Of a stretch of 64,000 nucleotides of DNA, positions 45,708 to 50,309 are shown piece by piece (the first letter of the stretch is position 1; the number at the start of each line of letters is the position of its first letter). Below the pieces are notes generated by a model, which saw nothing but the letters and a program-made list of their open reading frames with translations, did not search any database and was not told the DNA's origin. The position numbers were made by a program, and so were the translations under genes. Source of the DNA: Rhizobium sp. RM (lineage in GTDB: Bacteria; Pseudomonadota; Alphaproteobacteria; Rhizobiales; Rhizobiaceae). Where the stretch lies: NCBI RefSeq assembly GCF_013390595.1, contig NZ_JACAWV010000002.1:1-64000 (forward strand), written 5' to 3'.

Positions 45708-47282
45708 TTATGCAAGAGCTGCAGGTCTTTCGGCAACCAGCCAGCGTTGGGCGGCCTCAATGTCTGCAAAACCCAGATCGTGCCCGTCTTCGACCGTTTC
45801 CAGTCCTGCCTGTGCGCCCGTCGCCGCCAGTTGCCGTTGCAGATCCGTCGATCTGTCGCGGTACTTGTCCCGTCCTCCGGCAACAATCAGCAGGTTTTTC
45901 CCGGAAAGATTGGTCTCCGGCCAGACATCGAGAACAGGCATCGGGCGATAAAGCAGCGCATCTCCGGCCAGCTCCGGATGAAGCGCGGCAAATGCCGTAT
46001 AGAAATTGGCGCCGTTCGAATGGCCGATATAGCGCAATTTTGTGCGGTCGAGACCGTAGGAACTGATCGCGCCTTCAATGAAGGCCGCAAAGGCTTCCGC
46101 TTCCGAAACGATATCCTTCTGGTCGAACGAGAAGTTCGGATAACGACGGAACCAGCGCGCAACGCCTTCTTCGGTGCTGCGCCCGCGCACACCGAGAAGT
46201 GTCGCGCCGGGCGCCACGCGATGCGCCAGCGGCATCAGGCTCGTTTCGCTGCCGCCGGAACCATGCAGCAGGACCAGCGTGCTGCCGTCAGGCTGATCGG
46301 GCGTATAGAAGCGGTGGATGAACGGTAATTCCCGGTAAATGACGCGCTCCTCCTCCGGCATGGAAAATTGCGGCAGGGAGACGCGCACGTCTGCTTCATC
46401 CTTCATGAAGAGTGGCGGAATGAACAGCTTTTCACCAAGTCTCTCCACCGGCTCATCCACGTTCATGCCGGGCGCATCGGTTGCCATTTCGATCAGAACA
46501 CCGCCCGGTTCTCGAACATAGAGCGAATGGAAATATTTCCGGTCATGGGCATTTGTCGTGCTGGAGTTCAGCGCCTTGAGGCCTGCCAGAACGTTGTTCA
46601 GGTCGTCCATATCCTCGGCACGGAATGCGATGTGATCGACCGTGCCGGTGCCAGGCGCACTCGACCAGAAACCCGTCGCGTCACGCACGTCGATGATATC
46701 GCCGCTTTCCGAGGTCATGCGTTGAATGCTTCCAACCCGCTCGTCACCGCGATAACCGAAGTGCCGCGAAAGAAATGCTGCGGTTTCCTCGGGAACTTCG
46801 CTAAGCACCGTCGCGCCGTAGATACGGCGAATGCCATCTTCGCGCGAGATGTCTTTCGTTACGTGGACATGCGCGTTGTCGAAAGCGGTGGTGCCAACGA
46901 GCTTGAGGATGATGCCGTCCGGGTCTTTCAGGCGGATCACCGGCTGGCCGAACTCCTCCACCGGCCCTTCGGTGCGGATACCGAATCTCAGAGCGCGCGT
47001 CAGCCAGAAGCCAATGCTCGCAGGATCGATCGCCATTGACACTTCCAGTGTCTGGCCATAGCCGACGCGTCCCTGGCCGCCATCTTCCCAGACGAGAAAC
47101 GTCATCAGCGAGCCGGCGGAGCCGATCTCGTCGCCGTAAATCAGGTGAAGCTGCATTGCGTCTTCAAACCCGGCGGTTCTTTTCACCAGCCGAAGCCCCA
47201 GAAAGCCAGCGTAGAAGTCTACGTTCGCCTGCACTTTGCGGGTGATCATGGTGATATGGTGTATGCCCAAAGCCGAAGTCAT
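45708..47282 (-). CDS. Fused ring-cleaving dioxygenase (VOC) and alpha/beta hydrolase
   Basis: A 524-residue fusion. Residues 1 to about 310 contain two vicinal oxygen chelate modules: LGIHHITMITRK with ligand H9, and TVDHIAFRAEDMDD with a second histidine, ending with GGVLIEMATDAP (E), as in MhqO/LinE-type ring-cleaving dioxygenases. Residues about 335-524 are an MhqD-like carboxylesterase, with oxyanion loop LLHGSGG, nucleophile S422 in GHSNGAN, D472 in AGGRDKYRD and H501 in DGHDLGF. In Firmicutes these two activities are separate neighbouring genes in hydroquinone-resistance operons, so the fusion points to quinone detoxification. That role is inference. Confidence 0.85.
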   Translation of the reverse strand: MTSALGIHHITMITRKVQANVDFYAGFLGLRLVKRTAGFEDAMQLHLIYGDEIGSAGSLMTFLVWEDGGQGRVGYGQTLEVSMAIDPASIGFWLTRALRFGIRTEGPVEEFGQPVIRLKDPDGIILKLVGTTAFDNAHVHVTKDISREDGIRRIYGATVLSEVPEETAAFLSRHFGYRGDERVGSIQRMTSESGDIIDVRDATGFWSSAPGTGTVDHIAFRAEDMDDLNNVLAGLKALNSSTTNAHDRKYFHSLYVREPGGVLIEMATDAPGMNVDEPVERLGEKLFIPPLFMKDEADVRVSLPQFSMPEEERVIYRELPFIHRFYTPDQPDGSTLVLLHGSGGSETSLMPLAHRVAPGATLLGVRGRSTEEGVARWFRRYPNFSFDQKDIVSEAEAFAAFIEGAISSYGLDRTKLRYIGHSNGANFYTAFAALHPELAGDALLYRPMPVLDVWPETNLSGKNLLIVAGGRDKYRDRSTDLQRQLAATGAQAGLETVEDGHDLGFADIEAAQRWLVAERPAALA

Positions 47283-47398
47283 TGTCTCTGCCCCACTGAA
47301 TGTTGTGGTTCTTTCTGTCGCAAGCTGCCCCTGTTCGGCAATCCCGGCAAATGAGAACGATGTGTTTTCATTGTGAACAACGGTGAGGCGGAACTACG

Positions 47399-47413
47399 AC
47401 GCAATCATTGCGT
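47399..47413. promoter_or_regulatory. Palindrome upstream of the dioxygenase-esterase gene
   Basis: ACGCAAT-C-ATTGCGT has perfect 7-base arms about a single centre base, 117 bases upstream of the minus-strand start at 47282, in the divergent gap to the ABC operon. Confidence 0.4.
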
Positions 47414-47449: not shown

Positions 47450-47468
47450 ATGCTTATAAAATAAGCAT
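47450..47468. promoter_or_regulatory. Palindrome overlapping the ABC-operon operator
   Basis: ATGCTTAT-AAA-ATAAGCAT has perfect 8-base arms and shares its last four bases (GCAT) with the long palindrome that follows. Confidence 0.5.
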
Positions 47469-47493
47469 ACAAAATCATGATGATTTTGTATGC
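47465..47493. promoter_or_regulatory. Perfect 29-bp palindrome upstream of the ABC operon
   Basis: Arms GCATACAAAATCAT and ATGATTTTGTATGC (14 bases each) about a central G. It ends 77 bases before the substrate-binding protein start. The ATACAAAAT/ATTTTGTAT half-sites have the look of GntR (FCD/VanR) operators; the cognate regulator is not encoded next to it. Confidence 0.6.
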
Positions 47494-47570: not shown

Positions 47571-48611
47571 ATGATCACGCGTAGACTGCTGTCTAAAGCT
47601 TTGGCGATCGCAACGATTGGCGTTGCCGCCGGTGTGTCCATGCCGGTCACCAGCGCGCTTGCCGAAACGGCGATCAAGTTCACGCTCGACTGGAAGTTCG
47701 AAGGCCCCGCGGCTGGTTTCCTTCTTGCTCTCGACAAGGGATACTTCAAGGCTGAAGGCCTCGACGTGACGATCGACACCGGCAATGGTTCGGTCGAGGC
47801 GATTCCGCGCGTTGCAACCGGCGCCTATCAGATGGGCTTCGGTGATATCAACTCGCTGATGAAGTTCCTGGACGAAGACCCAAGCCAGAAGATCAAGGCC
47901 GTCTACATGGTCTATGAGCGCCCAACATTTGCGGTCGTTGGCCGCAAGTCGCTTGGCGTAACCGATGATCCGAAGTCGCTGGAAGGCAAGAAGCTCGGCG
48001 CGCCTCCACCGGACGGCGCTTTTGCACAGTGGGCCGCCTTCAAAAAGGTCGCGGGTCTGGATGACAGCAAGATCGCCATCGAGTCGATCGGCTTTCCGGT
48101 GCGCGAACCGATGCTTGCCAAAGGCGATGTCGATGGTGTTTTCGGTTTTGCATTCTCCGTTATCCTGAACCTCAAGAAGCAGGGTATCACCGATGACGAT
48201 ATCTCCACGATCCTGATGGCCGAGCACGGTTTGAATCTGTATGGCAACTCGGTGCTGGTAAACACTGATTTCGCTGAGAAAAATCCGGAAGCTGTGAAGG
48301 GCTTTCTGAAAGCGCTGGCAAAGGGCTTCGCCGATTCCGTCAAGAACCCGGAAGAAGGCGTGGCTGCCGTATTGAAGCGCAACGAAACACTGGACAGCGC
48401 AATCGAGCTGGAACGCCTGAACATGGCCAACAGCATGAACATCAAGACGCCTTACGTCGTTGAAAACGGCATGGGCGGCGTTGATCCTGCAAGACTTTCC
48501 GCCTCCATCGATACGCTCAAGATTTCCATGGGCCTCAAGGGCAACGTTAAGGCCGAACAGGTCTTCGACGCTGGTTACCTGCCGGCCAAGGAAGAGCGCA
48601 TGCTTCCTTGA
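47571..48611 (+). CDS. ABC transporter substrate-binding protein, NMT1/THI5-like
   Basis: A 346-residue periplasmic binding protein. Signal peptide about 1-31 (LLSKALAIATIGVAAGVSM...SALA). The mature part opens IKFTLDWKFEGPAAGFLLALDKGYFKAEGL, the NMT1/SsuA-like fold found in importers for pyrimidine (thiamine precursor), nitrate/sulfonate or riboflavin-like ligands. SVEAIPRVATGAYQMGFGDI follows. Ligand residues cannot be resolved. The gene opens a three-gene operon with an ATP-binding protein and a permease and lies behind palindromes at 47450-47493. No TPP riboswitch motif was seen in the gap. Confidence 0.88.
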   Translation: MITRRLLSKALAIATIGVAAGVSMPVTSALAETAIKFTLDWKFEGPAAGFLLALDKGYFKAEGLDVTIDTGNGSVEAIPRVATGAYQMGFGDINSLMKFLDEDPSQKIKAVYMVYERPTFAVVGRKSLGVTDDPKSLEGKKLGAPPPDGAFAQWAAFKKVAGLDDSKIAIESIGFPVREPMLAKGDVDGVFGFAFSVILNLKKQGITDDDISTILMAEHGLNLYGNSVLVNTDFAEKNPEAVKGFLKALAKGFADSVKNPEEGVAAVLKRNETLDSAIELERLNMANSMNIKTPYVVENGMGGVDPARLSASIDTLKISMGLKGNVKAEQVFDAGYLPAKEERMLP

Positions 48612-48705
48612 ATGAATGCTGTTCACCCGGCCCTGGTGATACCGGGCCGGGTGATTTCGCATTTTTCGTGAATGACAGCTTTGGGGGGCTGAAAAGGGGA
48701 CTTCG

Positions 48706-49494
48706 ATGTCACATCTCGTGGAAATTGATAATGTCGACATGCGCTATGGCGGTGCGGCAGGAACGCTCGCCGTATCGGGCCTGAATCTCAGAGTAGACAA
48801 GGGCGAATTCGCTGCAGTCGTCGGTCCGTCCGGATGCGGTAAATCGACATTGATGAAGCTGGTAACCGGCCTGCACATTCCGCAAAAGGGCAATGTGGTC
48901 GTAGCCGGTCGACAGGTCACAGAACCCGTCTCCATTGTCGGCATGGCGTTCCAGAACCCGACGATGCTGCCCTGGCGCACGACGCTTGAAAACATTCTTC
49001 TGCCGCTCGAGATCGTTGAAAAGCATCGTCGTCGCCTGCGCTCGCACAAGGCGGATTACGTCGCCAAGGCCGAACGACTGCTGGAGATCGTCGGGCTGAA
49101 GGGATTCGGATCGAAATACCCCTGGCAGCTTTCCGGTGGTATGCAGCAACGCGCCAACCTCTGCCGTGCCTTGATCCACGAGCCTGATCTGCTGATGCTG
49201 GATGAACCGTTCGGGGCTCTCGACGCCTTCACCCGCGAAGAGCTGTGGTGCGTGATCCGCGACCTGCATTCTGCGCAACGCGTCACCATTATTCTTGTGA
49301 CGCATGACCTGCGCGAAGCGGTATTTCTGGCCGACAAGATCTTTGTCATGAGTGCACGGCCGGGACGCGTACTGGCCGAACACAAGGTGCCTTTCGCCCG
49401 TCCACGCCAGCTCGGTATCATGTACGATCAGAGTTTCAACGACATGGTACAGGCACTGCACGGCGAGATCGCGCAGGCGAGGGTGGCAGCATGA
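48706..49494 (+). CDS. ABC transporter ATP-binding protein (SsuB/TauB-like)
   Basis: A 262-residue nucleotide-binding subunit that powers the importer. Walker A GPSGCGKST at about 42-50, Q-loop AFQNPTMLPWRTTLENILLP, signature LSGGMQQRANLCRAL, Walker B LLMLDEPFGALDAFTRE, and H-loop VTHDLREAVFLADKI. It overlaps the permease start by four bases and follows the binding protein by 95 bases. The TauB/SsuB class pairs with NMT1-type binding proteins. Confidence 0.93.
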   Translation: MSHLVEIDNVDMRYGGAAGTLAVSGLNLRVDKGEFAAVVGPSGCGKSTLMKLVTGLHIPQKGNVVVAGRQVTEPVSIVGMAFQNPTMLPWRTTLENILLPLEIVEKHRRRLRSHKADYVAKAERLLEIVGLKGFGSKYPWQLSGGMQQRANLCRALIHEPDLLMLDEPFGALDAFTREELWCVIRDLHSAQRVTIILVTHDLREAVFLADKIFVMSARPGRVLAEHKVPFARPRQLGIMYDQSFNDMVQALHGEIAQARVAA

Positions 49495-50309
49495 GCACGA
49501 TCGTTGAAAGCAATATCGCGGAAGAGCCCGCAAAGCCGCTGATCGCCCGCGTCAACTGGGTCAAGGCTGCGCCGTGGCTCTACACGCTGGCCCTGTTTGC
49601 TGCGTGGGAACTCCTGGTCTACGCCCTGAAAATGCCGCCGACCATTCTGCCGTCGCCGACACGCGTGGCGCAGGCGATCCTTCAATATTGGTCGCCGATC
49701 TGGAAAAACTCGCTGCAGACGCTCTATACGACCACGCTCGGATTTGCGCTTGCCGTCGTTGCCGGCCTGGGCATCGGCCTGTTCATCGGTTGGTCGAAGA
49801 CGATCTATGCCGGTCTTTATCCGCTGATGATCGGCTTCAACGCCATCCCGAAGGTCGCGCTTGTACCGATCCTCGTCATCTGGTTCGGAATTGGCACCGT
49901 GCCTGCGGTTCTGACCGCTTTCCTGATTTCCTTCTTCCCCATCGTCGTCAACGTTGCCACCGGCCTAGCCACCATCGAGCCGGAAACGGAAGACGTGCTG
50001 CGCGCACTTGGCGCGAAGAAGATGGATATCATGTTGAAGGTCGGCATCCCGCGTTCGATGCCTTATTTCTTCGGTTCGCTGAAAATCGCCATCACGCTGG
50101 CCTTTGTCGGTTCCGTCGTCTCGGAGACGGTCGCCTCCAATTATGGCCTCGGCAACATGATGAGTTCGGCACAGAGCCAGTTCAATGTGCCCCTGGTTTT
50201 TGCCGGCCTGCTGATGCTCGCCGTCGAAGGGATCGTCATGTACGCGATCATGGCCTGGATCGAAAAGCGCATGACCGGCTGGGCACATCGTTCGACAATG
50301 GGGCAATGA
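49491..50309 (+). CDS. ABC transporter permease (SsuC/TauC-like)
   Basis: A 272-residue inner-membrane permease with about six hydrophobic segments. The coupling-helix EAA motif reads EPETEDVLRALGAKKMDIMLKVGIPRSMPYFFGSLKIA (near 163-200). The N terminus is cytosolic. Start overlaps the upstream ATP-binding gene (ATGA). It is the last gene of the operon and ends in a strong terminator. Confidence 0.92.
   Translation: MSTIVESNIAEEPAKPLIARVNWVKAAPWLYTLALFAAWELLVYALKMPPTILPSPTRVAQAILQYWSPIWKNSLQTLYTTTLGFALAVVAGLGIGLFIGWSKTIYAGLYPLMIGFNAIPKVALVPILVIWFGIGTVPAVLTAFLISFFPIVVNVATGLATIEPETEDVLRALGAKKMDIMLKVGIPRSMPYFFGSLKIAITLAFVGSVVSETVASNYGLGNMMSSAQSQFNVPLVFAGLLMLAVEGIVMYAIMAWIEKRMTGWAHRSTMGQ

Follow-up and report, generated by a model that had tools for sequence, protein, structure and literature searches.

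A gene that carries a ring-cleaving dioxygenase and an esterase in one reading frame raises two questions, namely, whether the joined form is genuine and whether it is the MhqO/MhqD pair of quinone-resistance operons in a single chain. The gene lies in the window (the whole stretch of 64,000 nucleotides that was analyzed), and its host is a plant-associated bacterium. That the two activities share a gene, as the first-pass annotation of this DNA had claimed, is confirmed: one intact frame at exactly 45708 to 47282 on the minus strand starts with ATG, has no internal stops, and encodes 524 amino acids, and both halves have significant matches (Table 1). Residues 4 to 311 match MhqO (PDB 3oaj; E about 3.5e-53 to 7.2e-53), and the dioxygenase half also matches 4huz, annotated as a 2,6-dichloro-p-hydroquinone 1,2-dioxygenase (E 1.7e-28 to 4.6e-28); residues 315 to 517 match Mll8374 (PDB 3b5e; E 1.7e-41 to 6.6e-41), and the hydrolase half also matches a carboxylesterase (PDB 2h1i; E 4.4e-26). 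A Pfam scan of the 524-residue protein recovered PF00903 as the sole family (E 5.3e-13, in two stretches) and none for the hydrolase half. The NCBIfam MhqD model NF047577 spans residues 326 to 512 (E 1.7e-24) with 86.6 bits against a curated cutoff of 325, and judged by its sequence this half is a relative, not an equivalog. The AlphaFold model has a mean pLDDT of 58.9, with 235 residues below 50; because these fall chiefly in the dioxygenase half, we did not read interdomain geometry from it.

Table 1. Coordinates of the fused gene, its parts, and the upstream palindrome
Feature	Position	Strand	Remarks
Fused dioxygenase-hydrolase gene	45708..47282	-	524 aa, 57.6 kDa
VOC dioxygenase half, MhqO-like, residues 1-302	46377..47282	-	Matches to 3oaj, 4huz
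Linker, residues 303-324	46311..46376	-	Joins dioxygenase C-terminal tail to hydrolase N-terminal start, both conserved
Alpha/beta-hydrolase half, MhqD-like, residues 325-524	45711..46310	-	3b5e, NF047577
D216, beside ligand H217	46635..46637	-	His in MhqO, PcpA, unfused pairs
H246, aligned with His of catechol 2,3-dioxygenases	46545..46547	-	Column comparison
Near-perfect palindrome, 13-bp arms	47465..47493	.	Between fused gene and divergent ABC transporter

The first-pass annotation had also raised the prospect that most relatives keep separate genes and that a frameshift joined them here, but this fails within the genus, where a search of 61 genomes found a full-length one-frame match in 36 of 37 same-genus genomes, the gene's own included (rows counted by eye). 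Together with the reexamined loci, which were fused in 32 of 32 same-genus cases and in all of the best 80 of 512 matching relatives (Agrobacterium, Rhizobium, Pararhizobium, and other Rhizobiales isolates), this rules out a frameshift or assembly artifact. In the 37th genome (G010, locus L060) the frame changes where the hydrolase begins, so the two halves are out of register; this frameshift in a fused-lineage copy could be either a true split or a sequencing error. Other truncated or frameshifted members were found in G092, G145 (second copy), G216, G236, G274, and G1361, and a few match rows have a stop near the 3' end of the match. Full-length one-frame matches, again counted by eye, were present in 88 of 297 genomes of the family sample, 32 of 397 of the order sample (19 of them outside the family), 2 of 385 of the class sample (own included), and 13 of 398 of the phylum sample, all inside the class; among the matches listed for the phylum sample, none outside the class was full length. 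The count across alphaproteobacteria that the first-pass annotation proposed thus finds the fusion frequent in Rhizobiaceae, including Agrobacterium, Rhizobium, and Sinorhizobium, and scattered across other alphaproteobacteria. Plasmid records of Shinella, Sinorhizobium, Paracoccus, Rhizobium, and Leisingera also hold full-length single-piece matches, and since five of the ten best plasmid rows name the match, each only as "VOC family protein," annotation overlooks the hydrolase half.

To place the joined form among its relatives, we extracted both halves from 271 records (193 fused, 44 split, and 34 VOC only, a redundant set) and thinned the tree sets to 112 rows (78 fused and 34 split), leaving out the frameshifted or truncated L060, L063, L074, and L134 and near-copies of Agrobacterium and Rhizobium. 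All fused rows fell on one side of a single branch in both the dioxygenase tree (SH-aLRT 100) and the hydrolase tree (SH-aLRT 99; the program flagged long branches), which is most simply explained if two adjacent genes were joined one time only; a single origin of the joined form thus seems likely. In a tree that included references and VOC-only proteins, the fused clade had 100/100 support, and its stem was long, at 0.94 changes per column. It grouped with unfused proteins of alphaproteobacteria (support 96/95), to the exclusion of B. subtilis MhqO, and the tree singled out none of them as its sister. The nearest relatives are unfused alphaproteobacterial dioxygenase and hydrolase pairs (e.g., in Pseudoroseomonas), which have ∼38 to 43% identity and the same order but are two genes, carry H216, and have a divergent LysR gene at 13 of 23 loci. 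The separate-gene state anticipated for relatives is therefore real, with 21 distinct unfused pairs in this nearer group; their gaps range, by called starts, from overlap to 175 bp, and the two genes share a reading frame in 8 of the 21. Unfused dioxygenases end in IEAVLPxL before the stop and unfused hydrolases begin M...LSFxHRF, and these ends match those of the fused linker (LPQFxxPxxxRxxxRxLPFxHRF), which combines the one's tail with the other's start. Two further candidates were rejected: in-frame stop read-through as an intermediate state, since the junctions viewed have an ordinary stop, spacer, and start, and a second independent fusion event in Paracoccus denitrificans H26, which BLAST matched in a single piece (98%) but where a stop separates the halves.

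Conservation is higher in the linker (0.825 over residues 303 to 324) than in residues 1 to 285 (0.741) or 325 to 518 (0.669), but 81 of 496 windows of linker length are conserved as highly, so the linker is well conserved without being exceptional. That conservation exceeds both half means yet is not extreme would suit a neutral fusion in which the halves work independently or one is inactive, with no coupling implied; we consider this highly improbable, because the metal ligands and the catalytic triad are retained, six linker residues (P304, P309, R313, L319, H323, and R324) are invariant across 35 fused representatives of <75% identity, and the splits seen inside the fused lineage are frameshifts only (G010 and G092).

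The active-site comparison covered 145 distinct fused proteins together with 36 split and 33 VOC-only ones. The metal ligands H9, H217, and E265 align with those of 3oaj and 4huz and are kept in 145 of 145 distinct fused proteins, save H9 in a frameshifted copy (L074), and R248 and Y255 are kept across all three sets. The hydrolase triad and GxSxG motif are present, with S422 in 145, D472 in 144, and H501 in 145 of the 145 fused proteins. The first-pass view that all catalytic residues are intact thus stands for the metal ligands and the triad but not for the second sphere, which has changed at D216 and H246. Position 216 is Asp in every fused protein (145/145) and His in all 34 genuinely unfused pairs; His accounts for 34 of the 36 split rows, the two with Asp (L060 and L063) being frameshifted members of the fused lineage. 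Position 246 is His in 144 of the 145 fused proteins (Lys in L099) and, outside the fused set, in L060 and L063 only, while unfused homologs carry R, K, I, V, or L there. Two proteins are possible intermediates, a fused one (L099, in G528) and a stand-alone dioxygenase (L266, in G143), both with D216 and K246.

A comparison of the fused proteins with the 21 nearer unfused pairs, from which 13 paralogs were left out, found fixed differences at positions 27, 38, 44, 45, 63, 110, 127, 216, 306, and 394. Among these, N38, Y45, F63, and H216, common to 3oaj, 1zsw, and the unfused homologs (4huz departs from 3oaj and 1zsw at position 38), have given way in the fused lineage to G, L, L, and D, and because pocket residues common to MhqO, PcpA, and the unfused homologs have been replaced, hydroquinone specificity should not be assumed. 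PcpA/LinE-type (chloro)hydroquinone 1,2-dioxygenases (4huz) have metal ligands, R248, and Y255 aligned in the fused half, but positions 216 and 246 are His and Lys in PcpA, and the matched chain has no hydrolase domain. H246, Y255, and E265 line up weakly with catechol dioxygenases (domain E 0.0055 for 9wgj and 2 for 3lm4). Catechol 2,3-dioxygenases (3lm4 and 7q2a) have a His where the fused half has H246, and the same Tyr/Glu spacing, but the sequence similarity is weak, and their first metal ligand sits in a different VOC module. A PROSITE-like pattern for the type I extradiol His-Tyr-Glu signature near the C-terminal ligand, with weak alignments behind it, matched 105 of 145 fused sequences; the 1 hit among 36 split sequences was a frameshifted member of the fused lineage, and none of the 33 VOC-only sequences or the 3 references matched. 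By their spacing, H246 and Y255 are presumably the counterparts of His248 and Tyr257 of homoprotocatechuate dioxygenase. Tyr257, His200, and His248 guide that enzyme toward proximal extradiol cleavage (PMC6308299). As far as sequence can tell, the gene is a real, conserved fusion of single origin, predicted to be bifunctional, with a re-tooled active site.

Whether it acts on the substrates of MhqO and MhqD is a further matter. The MhqO/MhqE and MhqD proteins of Bacillus and Staphylococcus quinone-resistance operons belong to the same two families, in the same order and with ligands and triad kept, but they are encoded by adjacent genes rather than one chain, identity to MhqO is 35%, D216, H246, and other pocket residues differ, and no MhqR-type gene was recognized beside the window gene. 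In Firmicutes, mhqE and mhqD are induced by quinones and MhqE/MhqO is described as cleaving quinone-S-adducts, while MhqD of S. aureus only "might" act in quinone catabolism (PMC6798810). The same genome holds an unfused VOC/hydrolase pair (C11, L058) with a gap of 130 bp, whose hydrolase shares 27% identity with the fused hydrolase half. It also holds a third MhqO-like gene (C24, L057), which has a LysR gene divergent from it but no hydrolase gene next to it. These paralogs are nearer to B. subtilis MhqO (3oaj) than the fused half is (41% for C11 and 44% for C24, against 35%), so the fused gene is an extra, diverged member of the family; the naming of an MhqO/MhqD pair was right in outline as to families but wrong if taken to mean plain MhqO and MhqD joined.

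A single chain would make the halves equimolar, and the fusion may do nothing more than fix a 1:1 ratio in an enzyme that detoxifies hydroquinones or quinones with MhqO/MhqD substrates. The homology of both halves and the quinone-type neighbors in some lineages fit such a role, but the four pocket replacements, the two further MhqOs in the genome, and the canonical MhqO that often adjoins the fused gene (8 of 34 loci) make it unlikely. Within 6.5 kb of 34 diverse fused loci we found genes for pirin (9), MhqO-like VOC proteins (8, one of which, at L064, is part of an unfused pair), FMN_red quinone-reductase-like proteins (4), GST (3), and SDR (3), and none of these occurred in 23 unfused loci examined; a divergent LysR gene, found at 13 of those 23, was seen among the fused at L239 (the one at L064 is on the far side of the unfused pair). 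These counts are biased, since the queries were picked for recurrence in fused loci after viewing them and L235, L237, and L238 are near-copies, and the Fisher values (0.008 for pirin, 0.016 for MhqO-like VOC, and 5e-6 for LysR) are descriptive. Gene order is SDR, fused gene, NAD(P)H-dependent oxidoreductase, and ring-cleaving dioxygenase on S. meliloti pSymB and GST, fused gene, NADPH-dependent FMN reductase, ring-cleaving dioxygenase, and LysR in Paracoccus sp. TOH; pirin genes flank the fused gene on both sides in Leisingera, and a catalase gene lies upstream of it in Rhizobium sp. WL3. Counting against a quinone role, the neighbors in the window (a divergent NMT1-type ABC transporter at 47571 to 50309 and a downstream DUF2339 protein gene), the same neighbors at Agrobacterium loci, and those at Rhizobium loci (e.g., L210, L171, and L189, where sensor-kinase/response-regulator genes, read from sequence, lie close upstream in the same orientation) are not quinone enzymes.

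We infer that H9, H217, and E265 would hold a metal, Fe(II) or one like it, in the N-terminal half, and that this half would cleave the ring of a substituted dihydroxybenzene of catechol or hydroquinone type, after which the C-terminal serine hydrolase (S422-D472-H501) would work on the ring-opened product. The single chain may also channel that product to the hydrolase, as the first-pass annotation suggested. Most likely the cut would adjoin a carbon bearing OMe or SR; on chemical grounds, cleavage between C-OH and C-OMe or C-SR would provide the hydrolase with an ester or thioester. Alternatively, the hydrolase may cut a C-C bond of a semialdehyde or ketone product. The role may be to detoxify or use plant-derived phenols and quinones. 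This proposal as a whole, with ring opening and hydrolysis of the product (perhaps a (thio)ester) by one bifunctional enzyme that serves to detoxify or use phenols or quinones, has in our judgment an even chance of being right. Extradiol cleavage of 3-O-methylgallate yields CHMOD, a 6-methoxy-6-oxo compound (a methyl ester), and the enzymes proposed to act on it next are DesC and DesD (PMC8091115). This precedent would make an oxygenase-esterase fusion sensible, and the GST gene that lies immediately upstream in three lineages (L244, L247, and L271) would fit with a thiol adduct. A bolder version holds that the fusion moved the dioxygenase from hydroquinone- to catechol-type second-sphere chemistry and that the enzyme opens O-methylated or glutathione-conjugated dihydroxybenzenes beside the substituent and hydrolyzes the (thio)ester at once, freeing methanol or glutathione. 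We regard this as a long shot; if true, the second-sphere shift together with ester or thioester hydrolysis would explain why MhqO-type dioxygenases are frequently paired with a carboxylesterase.

The role of that accompanying hydrolase is unsettled in the literature, and a 2025 Paenibacillus paper proposes C-C hydrolysis for it (PMC12673573). The same paper treats three mhqO genes of Agrobacterium sp. B1 alongside a separate hydrolase gene, and its abstract, the first part of its Results, and its Discussion do not mention a fusion. Its proposal for mhqOD, a 17-fold increase of one Agrobacterium mhqO on soda lignin (PMC12673573), and the compatibility of H246 with catechol cleavage (from weak alignments) would suit catabolism of lignin-derived aromatics, in which C-C or ester hydrolysis would come after extradiol cleavage, as has been proposed for Paenibacillus mhqO/mhqD and DDVA. 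Against this, the mhqO genes that it describes as >40% aligned with Paenibacillus MhqO resemble the unfused homologs (41 to 44% to 3oaj) more than the fused one (35%), and we find such a role quite doubtful for the fused enzyme. In the open-licence literature we found no paper about a dioxygenase-hydrolase fusion and nothing relevant on LinE acyl chloride. The one-chain form offers a clean test of whether the two reactions are consecutive.

In the upstream region, an aligned block resembling GTTCAC...AACACA.CGTTCTC, within 47283 to 47400, recurs 60 to 100 bp upstream of the fused gene when 15 relatives are aligned; a strict pattern for it matches 3 of 22 loci only, and we claim no motif. The palindrome (Table 1) is a candidate operator that may or may not be linked to the fused gene; both of its half-sites, TTGTATGC and GCATACAA, are present in 6 of 15 aligned Agrobacterium-type upstream regions, and one of them is present in 2 more.
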